The position numbers and the translations under genes are program-made. A DNA stretch of 36,807 nucleotides from a virus. Location: the IMG/VR virus record IMGVR_UViG_3300007539_000062, positions 1 to 36,807 of that record; one strand, given 5' to 3'. Position 1 is the first letter of the stretch, and each line of letters starts with the position of its first letter. Positions 3,284-34,482 of the stretch are shown in pieces. The notes under the pieces were generated by a model. The model was not told where the DNA came from, made no database searches, and saw only the letters and a list, made by a program, of their open reading frames with translations.

Positions 3284-3506
3284 TGATTGCGCGGTCGGTT
3301 ACATCCTCGAAAGGAAGGTGTTCTACAAGTTTGAGTAAAGGGTTATCGTTCTTTATCTGAGCGTGTATACCGTTATCCTTTAGTAACTGACGTGCAGCAT
3401 TTAAATCACTAGGTGTAGCTTCTCCGCTTTCTATTCGACGTGTAAATTCGTCAATCAGTAAGCTCTGCATATTGTGCAGTTTATCTGTCTTACTAGGGTT
3501 TTCCAT
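3276..3506 (-). CDS. terS: Terminase small subunit (T7 gp18-like)
   Basis: This 76-residue protein carries the SGEATPSDLNAARQLLKDNGI signature (split here as SGEATPSDLNAARQ and LLKDNGI, about residues 32-52) that I associate with small terminase subunits of T7-like phages. It would recognise concatemeric DNA and recruit the large subunit. It overlaps the preceding membrane protein gene by 14 bases and the following HNH gene by 8, forming a tight packaging-lysis cluster as in T7. T7 gp18 is 89 residues long. Confidence 0.8.
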   Translation of the reverse strand: MENPSKTDKLHNMQSLLIDEFTRRIESGEATPSDLNAARQLLKDNGIHAQIKNDNPLLKLVEHLPFEDVTDRAING

Positions 3507-29746: not shown

Positions 29747-32164
29747 TTACGAGAAGAAATACTGACTACCCTTCACGTCGCTTGCATCTAATGTTCCATA
29801 TTCAGGTATTAGCGGGAATGCTAAGTGTGGGTATTGGGTTTGAAGTTGTAATACAAAATCTTCTAACAAATCATTCTTGAACATTTTGTAACATTCGTTT
29901 CTAAGTAGTCTTGAAAATTCTTCACACTTTGTTGAGTGTGTTCCGTATGAATCATGAATCATTGCAAAGTCATAAACACCTGCTTCTTTATTCGCGGCGA
30001 TAACAGATTTAGTAAGTAGGCTTGCGTCCAAACTATGTACAAAGTTCGGTGAGATACCTTGTTTAGCCTTCTTAACGGATATTTTTGCGTCTTCTTTACG
30101 GAAGGAAACATAAGTGGCGCTACCGCCTATACTTGTTTTAACTTCTTGATTAGTAAATCCAAAATAACTTTGCTTAACAGGAAAGCCTGTAGGTGTTTCC
30201 CATTCAATCGCGTGTCCATCTTTAGCTACAATGGATGCACACTCTCTTAACCAATTCATACATTGTGTCGGTTTGTCTAAAACATCGTGTACAGCCTTCC
30301 AAGCTAACTTTGCTAAATATCCTGTAACTTTATATCTGTCGTTTTCTGTAAATGGATTTACTTTTTGTTTCTTACGTAAAGTGTCCTGATACCATTCATC
30401 AATATATGCACGACAACTATAGAATGTACCGCCATAAGGAAATACCATAACAACTCTCTTTAGTGTGCTACGGTCGATACCAAATTCATACCAAGTTTTT
30501 GCATAAGGGCTTTCATCATCTGCTAACAAATATTCATTAACTTTATCTGCGACGTCCCTATAAATATCTTCAGGAATAACAGTAGGCATTACATTAGTAG
30601 ACTTACCGCCTTCTTCATCTCGCATTAACAATGATAGTATTTGTAAACCGTTGTTAGTAGCATCCATAGCTACAGGTAAGTGTGTGTTTAACTTACCTTC
30701 ACGAATGTATTCTGCCCACTCAAAGCACCACGCTAAAAACTGCCATGACTTATCCGCGTATTCGTAATCTCTATATAATGTAGGGTTGTCGGCAATTTTT
30801 ATCGCGGTGTCTGAAAAGTCGTAAGCCCATTGCTCACGGTCTGCCAAAGAAACTTTATCATTGCCCCAAGTATTAGCACCGTGAATAGCTAACCATTTAG
30901 CATCTTGTTTGTTTTTGATTTTTTCAGGGCGGGCAAAATGTAGTAGTCCCCGTGAGTAGTCTGCTGACTGAATATTCAAGAACGAAGGAATAGAGTAAAC
31001 CCTACCTCTGAAATCACATTGGTGGGGCATAAAGAATCTCTCACCTCTAAACTTCTCCGCAAGGTGTAATGTCTTCGCAACTAACATTCTACGGGATTTG
31101 GTAGAGAGATTAAGCTCGTATATTTTAGCGGCTTCCCTTCTCCAATCTCTATTTACAATAGCATCAGTTTTAAAATCTGTCGGAATGGGCGGGAACTCTT
31201 CATCTTTACGGTTCGGGAGTTCACCGATTGATAAGTTATTGTCCCACGCCCATTTCATTGTGTCCAAGACTTTGTCATTAACTCTCCAAGGAGTTTGTTG
31301 GATTAAATTAACTGCTTCCATTGGTTCATAAAGCTCACCTTTGATGCCACGGAGGAACGGCATATCAGTAGTCTTTATGAATGGAAGCTTGGGTAAATGA
31401 TAACCTTCTGTATCAAACCCACCCTCGAACACATTTTTCCACGGTAGCGGGGTTTCTACCGTTGGAAGCCAAAAGGGTTCTAGTAACTCGCGGTCTTCGT
31501 TGTATTTCTCAATCCACTCAATTAATTCTTGTGTGGCTGAAACATATCTTACAGGCTTTTTTCCACGGGTTTTTAAAATATATACGTATTCAATTATTCC
31601 TGTTGTGGAGCGTAACAACTCAATCATGTTTACACCCATATTTAGTTTGTCTCTGATTGACCACTTCTGCCACTCAGGCATCAAACCTTTATCAACTTCA
31701 TGCGCCATCGAACCACGCACGTGTCTTATCTTACCTTTCTCTCCTTTACGTTTCTTAGCACCAAGTAGAATACCTTTAGCCTTGGCATCATTATTTTCTA
31801 AAAGGAAACGACAACGGAGTTCATCCTCGACTCTAGCACCAAGATAAATACCAACTTGGGCTAGTGGTCGATTCTTTGTAATGCTGTCTAAAACAGCTTT
31901 TATACTAATATACCCTATTACTTTTGCATCTAAATTTTGGGTATCAATTTGATAACGCGCTTTACGGTCGTAGAACGCAACGGTATTTTTCCAATCTTCG
32001 ATACCCTTTGTGAACTCAGGGAGAACACCACGCATCAAACGTTGTCCATAGTTAGTTTCTATTTCAGCGTCTCTTTGTCTTGCTGATTCAACTTTGTTTC
32101 TGTATCTGCCTACACCAAGTGTCTGCATTTCTGTGTTCAACGCCTGTTGACTTAAATCTCCCAT
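29747..32164 (-). CDS. Single-subunit DNA-directed RNA polymerase (T7 gp1-like)
   Basis: This protein is 805 residues long from the ATG at 32164 (T7 gp1 is 883). It transcribes the phage genes from its own promoters. Catalytic regions are CDFRGRVYSIP (near 384), MDATNNGLQILSLLMRDEEG with the metal-binding Asp at about 501, TLKRVVMVFPYGG (Lys569 and Tyr577, equivalent to T7 Lys631 and Tyr639), and IHDSYGTHS with Asp738. The C-terminus YFFS resembles T7 FAFA. The frame opens upstream to a TTG at 32200, three bases from a palindrome. No clear ribosome binding site precedes either start, so expression may be low or controlled. It is preceded by an operator-rich gap. Confidence 0.96.
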   Translation of the reverse strand: MGDLSQQALNTEMQTLGVGRYRNKVESARQRDAEIETNYGQRLMRGVLPEFTKGIEDWKNTVAFYDRKARYQIDTQNLDAKVIGYISIKAVLDSITKNRPLAQVGIYLGARVEDELRCRFLLENNDAKAKGILLGAKKRKGEKGKIRHVRGSMAHEVDKGLMPEWQKWSIRDKLNMGVNMIELLRSTTGIIEYVYILKTRGKKPVRYVSATQELIEWIEKYNEDRELLEPFWLPTVETPLPWKNVFEGGFDTEGYHLPKLPFIKTTDMPFLRGIKGELYEPMEAVNLIQQTPWRVNDKVLDTMKWAWDNNLSIGELPNRKDEEFPPIPTDFKTDAIVNRDWRREAAKIYELNLSTKSRRMLVAKTLHLAEKFRGERFFMPHQCDFRGRVYSIPSFLNIQSADYSRGLLHFARPEKIKNKQDAKWLAIHGANTWGNDKVSLADREQWAYDFSDTAIKIADNPTLYRDYEYADKSWQFLAWCFEWAEYIREGKLNTHLPVAMDATNNGLQILSLLMRDEEGGKSTNVMPTVIPEDIYRDVADKVNEYLLADDESPYAKTWYEFGIDRSTLKRVVMVFPYGGTFYSCRAYIDEWYQDTLRKKQKVNPFTENDRYKVTGYLAKLAWKAVHDVLDKPTQCMNWLRECASIVAKDGHAIEWETPTGFPVKQSYFGFTNQEVKTSIGGSATYVSFRKEDAKISVKKAKQGISPNFVHSLDASLLTKSVIAANKEAGVYDFAMIHDSYGTHSTKCEEFSRLLRNECYKMFKNDLLEDFVLQLQTQYPHLAFPLIPEYGTLDASDVKGSQYFFS

Positions 32165-32202
32165 GTATTTGTTTTTGTCAGAGTTTTGTCCATATGTCAA
32201 AT

Positions 32203-32224
32203 TTAGTTACACATATGAAACTAA
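32203..32224. promoter_or_regulatory. Operator-like palindrome 1 upstream of the RNA polymerase gene
   Basis: A 22-bp palindrome reads TTAGTTACA-CATA-TGAAACTAA; all pairs of the arms match except one. It matches the palindrome at 32344-32365 in 20 of 22 positions. It lies just upstream of the RNA polymerase start, where a bound repressor could block transcription. Confidence 0.7.
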
Positions 32225-32259
32225 TTTAGTATTGTGTTAAATTGTTATTTTAAAGGTGT

Positions 32260-32273
32260 TTACAAATATGTAA
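32260..32273. promoter_or_regulatory. Operator-like palindrome 3 (related, shorter)
   Basis: TTACA-AATA-TGTAA is a perfect palindrome with the same 4-base spacer as its two neighbours and similar arm ends (ACA / TGTAACT). It lies 53 bp centre to centre from palindrome 1 and 88 bp from palindrome 2. Confidence 0.5.
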
Positions 32274-32305
32274 CTATAACACCCGATTAGGAATGAGTTG
32301 TCTTC

Positions 32306-32385
32306 TATAGACATAGACAAATATTGGCTGTTTTCTGCGAAAATTAGTTTCACATCTGAAACCAATATTGTCTATTTTGTCTATA
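32306..32385. repeat. Imperfect inverted repeat with TGTCTAT units around palindrome 2
   Basis: The arm at 32306-32327 (read on the minus strand as CCAATATTTGTCTATGTC-TATA) matches the plus-strand arm at 32362-32385 (CCAATATTGTCTATTTTG-TCTATA). TGTCTAT occurs at 32369, 32378, 32399 and 32410, and its inverse ATAGACA at 32307 and 32313. The motif array encloses palindrome 2 and reaches into the end of the small gene upstream. Confidence 0.65.
32344..32365. promoter_or_regulatory. Operator-like palindrome 2 upstream of the RNA polymerase gene
   Basis: A 22-bp palindrome reads TTAGTTTCA-CATC-TGAAACCAA, with arms paired in all but one position. It differs from palindrome 1 at only two positions and lies in the loop region of the larger inverted repeat. 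Two near-identical palindromes 141 bp apart suggest cooperative binding of one dimeric regulator. Confidence 0.7.
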
Positions 32386-32412
32386 GAAAATGACAATTTG
32401 TCTATACTTTGT

Positions 32413-32595
32413 CTATTCCTGAACGCCGTTTTCAATCAGCTTATCCTTCATACGTGCAATTTTATTTTTCAACTTCTCAATATCTTTATTAAGAGTTTCA
32501 TTTTGCGTTGATAATACATCGCACATCTTAGTCATAGAGTTAAGACCGCGTTTTAATACTGCTTCGGAACTTTCGTCCCATATTCCTTTAGACAT
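32413..32595 (-). CDS. Small coiled-coil protein between integrase block and RNA polymerase
   Basis: This 60-residue protein begins MSKGIWDESSEAVLKRGLNS. From about residue 20 to 56 it has heptad-like Leu/Ile/Met spacing (MCDVLSTQNETLNKDIEKL and KNKIARMKDKLIENG), so a leucine-zipper-type dimer is likely. No DNA-binding basic region is obvious. It is the last gene before the operator-rich gap, which makes a regulatory role plausible but unproven. Confidence 0.6.
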   Translation of the reverse strand: MSKGIWDESSEAVLKRGLNSMTKMCDVLSTQNETLNKDIEKLKNKIARMKDKLIENGVQE

Positions 32596-32596
32596 A

Positions 32597-32668
32597 TTAT
32601 TTCTTTTTGGGTTTAGGTTTAGGTTTATATTTAGATTTCTTATTTAGAATTGCTGTTGTTCTTAGCAT
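32597..32668 (-). CDS. Possible 23-residue Lys/Pro-rich micro-protein
   Basis: An ATG at 32668 opens a short frame ending KKSKYKPKPKPKKK at a TAA one base before the next gene's ATG at 32595. The first part overlaps the HTH gene in another frame. It contains the tandem CCTAAACCTAAACC sequence. It could instead be a frameshift extension of the HTH protein, or chance. No ribosome binding site is clear. Confidence 0.25.
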   Translation of the reverse strand: MLRTTAILNKKSKYKPKPKPKKK

Positions 32669-32966
32669 AATAATTTGGAAGGTTGAAGTAACGTCGCCAT
32701 TTAGCGTATGTACTTGGGTGGACATGATTAGTAGCGCAGGCTTCTTTACAACTCAAGCCTGAATCTCTAAGTGTATCAATATTTTTTAGAGCCAATAGTT
32801 TTTCATCTTTAGTATAACCGCTAGACCTATACTTTTCAGGCTTACCGATAAAATCAGTTGTACCTGTTTCTTTTACTAGGCGTTCGTTATCTTCGACTTC
32901 TTTGGCTAGGCGGGCTGCTGCCCACCGCATAAACGAGCTTGCTTGCTCTGCTGTAGTTTCAATCAT
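32640..32966 (-). CDS. Helix-turn-helix protein of unknown role
   Basis: This 108-residue protein has an N-terminal helical region (SFMRWAAARLAKEVEDNERL) and, at about residues 66-95, a likely HTH: LRDSGLSCKEACATNHVHPS followed by TYAKWRRYFNL, similar to the HTH of transposase-like or phage regulator proteins. It starts 12 bases after the integrase stop. The place between the integrase and the RNA polymerase control region makes it a candidate excisionase, activator or repressor acting on the palindromes downstream. None of these is shown by the sequence. Confidence 0.6.
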   Translation of the reverse strand: MIETTAEQASSFMRWAAARLAKEVEDNERLVKETGTTDFIGKPEKYRSSGYTKDEKLLALKNIDTLRDSGLSCKEACATNHVHPSTYAKWRRYFNLPNYYAKNNSNSK

Positions 32967-32978
32967 ATTTATGGTTGT

Positions 32979-34016
32979 TTATTGTTGTAGTGCTTCTAAA
33001 CCCACCATGAGTCCATCAGGAGCGAGTTTAGCGTAAATCATTGTAGTTTTAATGTCGGCGTGTCCCATCCACTTCTGTACGACTGTAATAGGAACTCCTC
33101 GTTGTACTAGACGACTAGCACATGAGTGACGTGTAATATAAAAAACAAAATCTTTATCGTCGTTATTCATTTCTTCACGAACACAATCCCAATGTCTTCT
33201 TACACGTTGGTTGTCCCACCATCGGAATGGGTATTCTATATCGTACTTACAAGACATTTCCCAATGTTTGTGTGCGCGTTTAGTTAATGGAACAGTTCGG
33301 GCAATCCCTGTTTTAGTTTGGTGTTCATAAATATCAACTACCCAAACATTCTTGACCTTGTCGTGACGCACTTGTTTTCTTTGGATTTGTCTTGATTCTT
33401 CAGGGCGTAAACCTGTATCAATAGACCAACCAAAGAACTTAATGAACCTTGAGAAATCTTTGGCTGTGTTGTGGTATCTGTTAGCTAGTTTCAGTAGAAC
33501 TTGAATGATTGTTTGCTCTTCTTCATCTGACCAAAATATCAAACGTTGGTTCTTTGTTTTGAACCTAGGTATGTGAGGCATGGCATCAATCCAACCTCTT
33601 ACTAACGCAAAGTTTAGAGCTTTCCGTAACTTGGCTAACTTACAATTAACTGTGGCAGGTTTAAGACCTAAGTTTTTCAAATGTTTTACAAACTTATCTA
33701 TATGAGTTGTTTTAATGTTGCGGGCAGGTATGTCCCCAAAATATTCATTAAATTTTTTTATCTCATACAAACAATCTTGTTCTTGAGCTTGTCCTTCCCA
33801 AACATTGACAAACGTTTCATCAAGTACATCCGAAAGTGATTTGTCTTTGCTGTCTCCACTAATTATATCATTCAAAGAAATGTTAAGAGCTATACGTCTT
33901 TTCATCTCTGCTTCCCAAGCATTCGCTTCAACTTCAGTATCGAAACTTCTGCGATGTCTTGTGCCGTTCTTCATAAAGTCGGCTTGGTAACTGCTATTTA
34001 TTTGTCGAATACTCAT
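32979..34016 (-). CDS. int: Tyrosine recombinase, phage integrase
   Basis: This 345-residue integrase has an N-terminal arm-binding-like region (SYQADFMKNGTRHRRSFDTE), a core-binding SAM-like domain (about 60-145) and a catalytic domain. Catalytic residues are Arg204 (TGLRPEE), Lys235 (QTKTG), Arg296 (ITRHSCASRL), His319 (GHADI) and Tyr328 (MIYAKL). The first His of the usual HxxR motif is Tyr293 here. All other catalytic residues are present, so activity is expected. Its start overlaps the end of the MarR-like gene by 23 bases, so the two are translated together. I could not find a tRNA-like attachment core nearby. Confidence 0.93.
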   Translation of the reverse strand: MSIRQINSSYQADFMKNGTRHRRSFDTEVEANAWEAEMKRRIALNISLNDIISGDSKDKSLSDVLDETFVNVWEGQAQEQDCLYEIKKFNEYFGDIPARNIKTTHIDKFVKHLKNLGLKPATVNCKLAKLRKALNFALVRGWIDAMPHIPRFKTKNQRLIFWSDEEEQTIIQVLLKLANRYHNTAKDFSRFIKFFGWSIDTGLRPEESRQIQRKQVRHDKVKNVWVVDIYEHQTKTGIARTVPLTKRAHKHWEMSCKYDIEYPFRWWDNQRVRRHWDCVREEMNNDDKDFVFYITRHSCASRLVQRGVPITVVQKWMGHADIKTTMIYAKLAPDGLMVGLEALQQ

Positions 34017-34389
34017 GTGTAATATCTAATATGTCTTGTTTCAAAGCTTTACCTTTGATGTCTAGGCTTACAATTCTGACACGTGCATCACGTGAGTCAA
34101 CACTAAATTTAATGATTTTACGATTTAATAAATATCTACAACTACGGTGTAATCTTACTGCTGTTGTATCTAATGCTTTTTGTATGTCTGCAAATGGTAC
34201 GGAAGACTCTGCACTACATAGAATATAGTAAACTGATAAGGTATATAAGTCTAAGTTACCTAAATAATCATGGAGCTTCTTTCCACGTTGGATGCAAGCA
34301 AATGAAAACACACCGCTCTGAAAACGGTATTTTATAGCACCATTCCCAACAAAATGGTTTGATTGTATCGATTTTATTGCTGTCCCCAT
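33994..34389 (-). CDS. MarR-like winged-helix regulator
   Basis: From the ATG at 34389 this protein is 131 residues long; a GTG at 34401 would add four residues. The C-terminal half fits a MarR-type winged helix: LDLYTLSVYYILCSAESSVP, FADIQKALDTTAVRLHRSCR, then the wing and closing helix VDSRDARVRIVSLDIKGKAL, close to the D-RD-R...SLT-KG pattern of MarR proteins. A sigma70-like promoter (34427-34455) lies just upstream and a palindrome further up. Linked to the integrase by overlap, it is the leading candidate for a lysogeny regulator. Its N-terminal 45 residues are not typical of MarR. Confidence 0.65.
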   Translation of the reverse strand: MGTAIKSIQSNHFVGNGAIKYRFQSGVFSFACIQRGKKLHDYLGNLDLYTLSVYYILCSAESSVPFADIQKALDTTAVRLHRSCRYLLNRKIIKFSVDSRDARVRIVSLDIKGKALKQDILDITHEYSTNK

Positions 34390-34426
34390 AACACCCCACA
34401 CATTGTATTATTTCAATACTGAAAAG

Positions 34427-34455
34427 ATAATATACTGTGATTCCCGACATAGCAA
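34427..34455 (-). promoter_or_regulatory. Putative sigma70-type promoter of the MarR-like gene
   Basis: On the minus strand TTGCTA (34450-34455) and TATTAT (34427-34432) are separated by 17 bases. A start near 34420 would leave a leader of about 20-30 bases before the gene. Confidence 0.5.
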
Positions 34456-34482
34456 TAGATAATTTCAAATGTGTAATTAATT

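Follow-up and report, generated by a model that had tools for sequence, protein, structure and literature searches.

A gap upstream of a T7-type RNA polymerase gene probably combines a phage attachment site with candidate MarR-type repressor operators

A single virus record of 36,807 bases (IMG/VR record IMGVR_UViG_3300007539_000062), hereafter called the window in the sense of this whole stretch of DNA, was used for the analysis. Its long reading frames lie nearly all on the minus strand. In the direction of the RNA polymerase (RNAP) gene, the order is a MarR-like winged-helix protein, the proposed repressor (33994-34389), a tyrosine integrase (32979-34016), a helix-turn-helix (HTH) protein of 108 aa (32640-32966), a small coiled-coil protein of 60 aa (32413-32595), a gap of 248 bp and a T7-type single-subunit RNAP of 805 aa (29747-32164), all on the minus strand. 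The RNAP is recognised by Pfam RNA_pol (1.8e-90) and phrog_414 (2.5e-216), and the integrase by a SAM-like core-binding domain, a weak arm-binding match and Phage_integrase (2.7e-19). The HTH protein is of the HTH_23/transposase type (HTH_23, 3.3e-6) and is a candidate excision factor or second regulator; a fold search with it gave no significant match. The coiled-coil protein is conserved beside the RNAP; several relatives keep it, whether or not a gap precedes their RNAP gene. The order MarR, integrase, gap and T7-type RNAP, known from temperate T7-like phages (Autographiviridae with integrase and MarR), is thus present in the window, and the phage is most likely a temperate T7-like marine phage.

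A DNA similarity search against isolated phages found no match to the window, and close relatives were taken from IMG/VR. The RNAP is 78-79% identical to the RNAPs of two of them (L005 and L006), 40% identical to that of an uncultured Mediterranean phage and 33-34% identical to those of Pasto, HTVC031P and LUZ100; over Pasto, LUZ100 and HTVC019P the range is about 32-34%. A protein scan of viral contigs for close relatives of the MarR-like protein or the integrase returned only L005 and the distant L096. Three further relatives (L033, L035 and L042) have the integrase and HTH genes abutting the RNAP gene with no gap; their attachment site, if any, must therefore be elsewhere.

The gap lies at 32165-32412, on the assumption that the RNAP most likely starts at the ATG at 32164, as in relatives. 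The original prediction had described a repeat-dense intergenic gap of 212 bp at this place; its repeat density was borne out and its length was not. Two 22-bp palindromes, here named O3 (32203-32224, core 32207-32220) and O1 (32344-32365, core 32348-32361), are present as predicted, each self-complementary at 9/11 positions. They share 19 of 22 positions, one fewer than the 20 first counted, and 18 when one of them is turned around. The related palindrome expected between them was located at 32256-32277 (O2), with the core TTACAAATATGTAA at 32260-32273 and self-complementarity at 7/11 positions. The window contains the sequence TTNCANNNNTGNAA eight times, with 1.4 occurrences expected; none of 100 shuffles reached eight, and three of the eight fall in the gap. 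The 22-bp palindrome form was found four times against 0.08 expected, the four being both strands of the two main sites.

Alignment of the gap (with L003, L005, L006 and the L004 record) revealed that the palindromes are retained in all three independent close relatives (L004, L005 and L006), so that their loss from relatives, which would have counted against the operator idea, was not observed. The window, L005 and L006 each carry three palindromes at corresponding places; the L004 record carries O2 and O3 only, and O1 hence appears dispensable. The spacing between O2 and O3 is 53 bp in the window, L004, L005 and L006, close to five helical turns. O1 and O2 lie 88 bp apart in the window. In L005 and L006 the distance is 99 bp, longer by 11 bp or about one helical turn, in too few cases to carry weight. 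A matrix scan found the operator sequence absent from the distant relatives L031, L096, HTVC019P and P-SSP7, and pattern scans for the operator and the core brought up no locus beyond those known before.

Further occurrences of the operator were searched with matrices that left out the genome being scanned. A matrix built only from the six gap palindromes of L005 and L006 was run over the whole window, and its top four sites were the three gap palindromes (25.7, 25.4 and 18.8) and a site with its core at 34463-34476 (17.4; full candidate operator 34459-34480), just ahead of the promoter predicted for the MarR-like gene (TTGCTA-17-TATTAT, 34427-34455, minus strand). In 60 shuffled genomes the best scores averaged 11.6 and 2/60 reached 17.4, and the 34463 site therefore rests on its position and on its recurrence in L005. 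With a second matrix from the window and L006 only, L005 being held out, the three gap sites of L005 ranked first, followed by sites at 3300 (19.3) and 3140 (15.2). Both lie upstream of the L005 MarR gene, and the former overlaps the -35 element of a predicted promoter. A possible second operator of the window's MarR-like gene, TTTCAATACTGAAA at 34411-34424 over the predicted transcription start, matches the 14-bp core and scores poorly over 22 bp (2.8). Palindromic sites at both the target promoter and the promoter of the MarR-like gene are thus seen in the window and in L005, independently in two genomes, and this distribution is the strongest argument for the MarR-like protein as the proposed binder. 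Together with the conservation in relatives, it lends good support to the predicted control of the RNAP gene, and the palindromes O1-O3 look like repressor operators.

The MarR-like protein itself has no Pfam MarR match above the cut-off; its counterparts in L031 and L096 meet the cut-off. It is 34-37% identical to the L005 protein, and a four-sequence profile matches MarR chains at 8.3e-7. The structure prediction (pLDDT 74) is confident from about residue 30 onward, and with it Foldseek retrieved MepR (6e-6), MexR (1e-5) and E. coli MarR (3.2e-5). By its model, the protein is a MarR-type winged-helix protein. Among the three binders proposed originally (the MarR-like, HTH and coiled-coil proteins), it is the better candidate, and the other two appear less suited.

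The RNAP promoter likely lies between O2 and O3 (32226-32255, minus strand), where the stretch is AT-rich and holds a -35-like CTTTAA (32255-32250) and a -10-like TACTAA (32231-32226), the latter corresponding to TATAAT in L005. These hexamers are not above chance, and a sigma-70 promoter scan gave nothing above shuffles.

Another recurrent pair of motifs, ACTATCACCG and ACTATCATTTTGAG, occurs in the window (34701, 34638 and 153) and in L005 (339/469, 1487/1655 and 2862/3008). The motifs are often paired, and in L005 they follow terminator-like CGCCTTTTTT stretches. They may be promoters recognised by the phage RNAP, and the RNAP gap has none of them.

A second class of repeats in the gap was told apart from the palindromes by the alignment with L005 and L006. 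The unit TGTCTAT occurs ten times in the 36.8 kb, a total not in excess of chance, and six of the ten fall within 32307-32416, two on one strand and four on the other. The clustering and the inverted arrangement noted earlier are therefore real; the role as repressor half-sites is not upheld, as the units match the arm-type repeats of integrases. Read on the other strand, TGTCTAT corresponds to the outer repeat T-x-GACAA, which in the window reads TATAGACAAA, AATAGACAAT and similar forms. GACAA is found eight times in the gap against 0.78 expected (0/500), with repeats on both sides of a central core, and it is enriched in the gaps of the window, L005, L006 and L096. The cluster on the integrase side (P-arm, 32366-32417) consists of ATAGACAA and AATGACAA repeats, the last of which overlaps the stop codon of the coiled-coil gene. 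The cluster on the RNAP side (P'-arm, 32172-32200, minus strand) consists of TTTGACATAT, TATGGACAAA and TCTGACAAA. With the tyrosine integrase gene about 570 bp from the gap, the units look like arm-type sites of this neighbouring enzyme.

The interval between the palindromes O2 and O1 (32278-32343) differs from the rest of the gap. The arms are 61-66% identical to those of L005 and L006, against 33-36% for this core, which appears to have been swapped between relatives. In L005 and L006, the 3' half of a tRNA-Ala(GGC), absent from the window, lies between O1 and O2, and the pieces match a real tRNA-Ala gene of bacterial genomes at 41/45 and 42/52 positions, respectively. The L004 record, which has a further 355 bases before its truncated RNAP match, carries TTGACAT-type repeats on both sides of a core that matches the 5' half of tRNA-Glu (30/35). 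The same order of MarR, integrase, gap and RNAP was also found in L096, L031 and P-SSP7, again with a whole or partial tRNA in the gap. L096 has a complete tRNA-Leu between two sets of GGTGACAA repeats and no palindromes, L031 has a truncated tRNA-like element (tRNA-His by eye), and P-SSP7 has the 5' half of tRNA-Leu (31/34) downstream of the integrase gene. The tRNA pieces in the same gap of relatives mark this gap as an attP in the group. By analogy, the window gap would be an attP as well, with a core that is not tRNA-like, a role that the original prediction, in describing an operator region only, had missed.

The orientation of the pieces varies: sense to the RNAP gene in L004, L031 and P-SSP7, and antisense in L005 and L006, where transcription of the tRNA would run away from the RNAP gene. 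In L111 (the record of L004), L031 (4690-4970) and L110 (5768-6039), the core carries a tRNA 5' half that runs in the direction of the RNAP gene. With such a core, a host tRNA promoter would read toward the RNAP gene after integration.

Searches for a host partner of the core, an attB, gave no match of the window core to a host gene. None of 299 genomes matched a tRNA-Arg anticodon-arm pattern guessed for the window core. For tRNA-Ala(GGC), the sets of 199, 398 and 121 genomes searched did not contain the exact anticodon-arm pattern, and one-mismatch versions appeared only in the phylum of a Billgrantia genome and in one of its orders. A genome scan with the RNAP alignment found no integrated prophage of this clade and returned only four distant relatives (28-35% identity); the LUZ100 integrase gave weak matches only (21-54% identity) in three of these four genomes.

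The large inverted repeat noted earlier around the palindrome O1 was confirmed as an 86-bp inverted self-match (32303-32388, 72% identical) bounded by an 11-bp perfect inverted repeat (32303-32313/32378-32388). In the window it holds arm sites, including two inverted TGTCTAT units, and ATATTGG, unlike in L005 and L006. As RNA, the minus strand of 32296-32395 is predicted to fold at -38.2 kcal/mol (z -8.1), and none of 200 shuffles was as stable. The early transcripts of T7 are cut by RNase III. A hairpin of this stability would suit an RNase III or attenuation site in a transcript reading through into the RNAP gene, an account of the element to which we assign a slim chance: the matching stretches of L005 and L006 lack it (z -0.5 and -0.3), and an inverted copy of arm repeats explains it. 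An Rfam search gave no known RNA, and miRNA-type matches on the hairpin stayed below the gathering score. The inverted repeat may have arisen simply by duplication of arm sites in inverted orientation, or it may serve as a processing site in a read-through transcript.

The two sets of repeats could each be read as the whole function of the gap. If all of them, TGTCTAT included, were repressor sites and the attP lay elsewhere, the dense repeats before the RNAP gene and the conserved palindromes would be accounted for. The tRNA halves in the same gap of L004, L005, L006, L031 and P-SSP7 argue against this, as do the arm-like GACAA repeats that flank the tRNA of L096 where palindromes are lacking, and we regard it as very improbable. 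The converse, an attP only, with the palindromes as sites of an accessory factor such as an HTH excisionase and no control of the RNAP gene, draws on the position of O1 and O2 on either side of the core and on the HTH gene between the integrase gene and the gap. Little credence is given to it here, as the region upstream of the MarR-like gene has the same sites without being an attachment site, the conserved spacing is that of O2 and O3, both on one side of the core, and L033, L035 and L042, with neither gap nor palindromes, encode the HTH protein as well. The palindromes may also be operators bound by the HTH or coiled-coil protein in place of the MarR-like protein. Both are encoded next to the gap and the former has the HTH_23 match, but the recurrence of sites at the MarR-like gene is as in autoregulation and the HTH protein is present in phages without palindromes, though its specificity may have drifted; on balance such a binder is unlikely.

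Overall, our analysis suggests that the gap is probably a composite lysogeny site, an attP and a MarR-repressed RNAP operator region in one. In this composite arrangement the outer clusters of arm-type repeats would serve the integrase and flank a host-derived core exchanged between relatives. The RNAP promoter would lie on the RNAP side of the core, between O2 and O3, two copies of the palindromic operator TTNCATATNTGNAA, with O1, a third copy, on the integrase side. The MarR-like protein, encoded upstream of the integrase gene, would bind O1-O3 as a dimer and would also bind the site at its own promoter, regulating itself and limiting its own expression. In the lysogen it would hold the RNAP promoter shut at O2 and O3. 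Integration would place the RNAP gene, its promoter, O2 and O3 together at one prophage end, and the MarR-like, integrase, HTH and coiled-coil genes and O1 at the other. With the attP separating the early operon from the RNAP promoter, read-through from this operon into the RNAP gene would be cut as well. A more speculative version, which we consider decidedly doubtful, would give the repressor a role in recombination as well: the attP core between O1 and O2 would be bridged or masked by MarR dimers sitting on these two operators, which would make repression and integration a single decision. Integration itself would then reset the circuit, since it parts the polymerase promoter from O1 and the early operon.

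How a temperate T7-like phage with a powerful RNAP of its own stays silent in the lysogen is an open question; repressor sites have been put forward as a hypothesis for such phages, from which stable lysogens are difficult to obtain. The present clade offers explicit candidate operators with conserved spacing and a likely repressor. Candidate operators, promoter and attachment site would share 250 bp, in which the host-derived core is swapped and the regulatory sites stay.

In lambda-type attP sites, the core is flanked by clusters of arm-type sites for the tyrosine integrase. The window differs in that arms and core are threaded with candidate repressor operators and the putative RNAP promoter. 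In mycobacteriophage BPs, with its integration-dependent immunity, the attP lies inside the repressor gene, whereas the putative attP of the window is placed between early operon and RNAP gene, and the phage has an intact repressor gene before it integrates. PMC4557955 places the attachment site of BPs within the lysogeny control circuit. Bordetella phage BB8 was set aside, since the gene before its integrase gene is not MarR by Pfam. Pasto, LUZ100 and HTVC019P have the same order of MarR, integrase, gap and RNAP as the window. For temperate T7-like phages, PMC10134795, citing Boeckman et al. 2022, presents as a hypothesis that MarR sites flank the promoter upstream of the RNAP gene. Relative to that description of temperate T7-like phages, the candidate operator of the window is defined, tied to the MarR promoter and interleaved with the putative attP. 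In P-SSP7 and S-TIP37, the attP with a tRNA piece lies downstream of the integrase gene, that of P-SSP7 in the gap between integrase and RNAP, and integration was shown experimentally with no stable lysogens reported (PMC8776855). The window integrase is of a different lineage and its core is not tRNA-like, and P-SSP7 has no operators of the window type. The hypothesis of MarR sites controlling the RNAP gene and the attP downstream of the integrase gene were thus known already, and this study adds a defined candidate operator and its interleaving with the putative attP.
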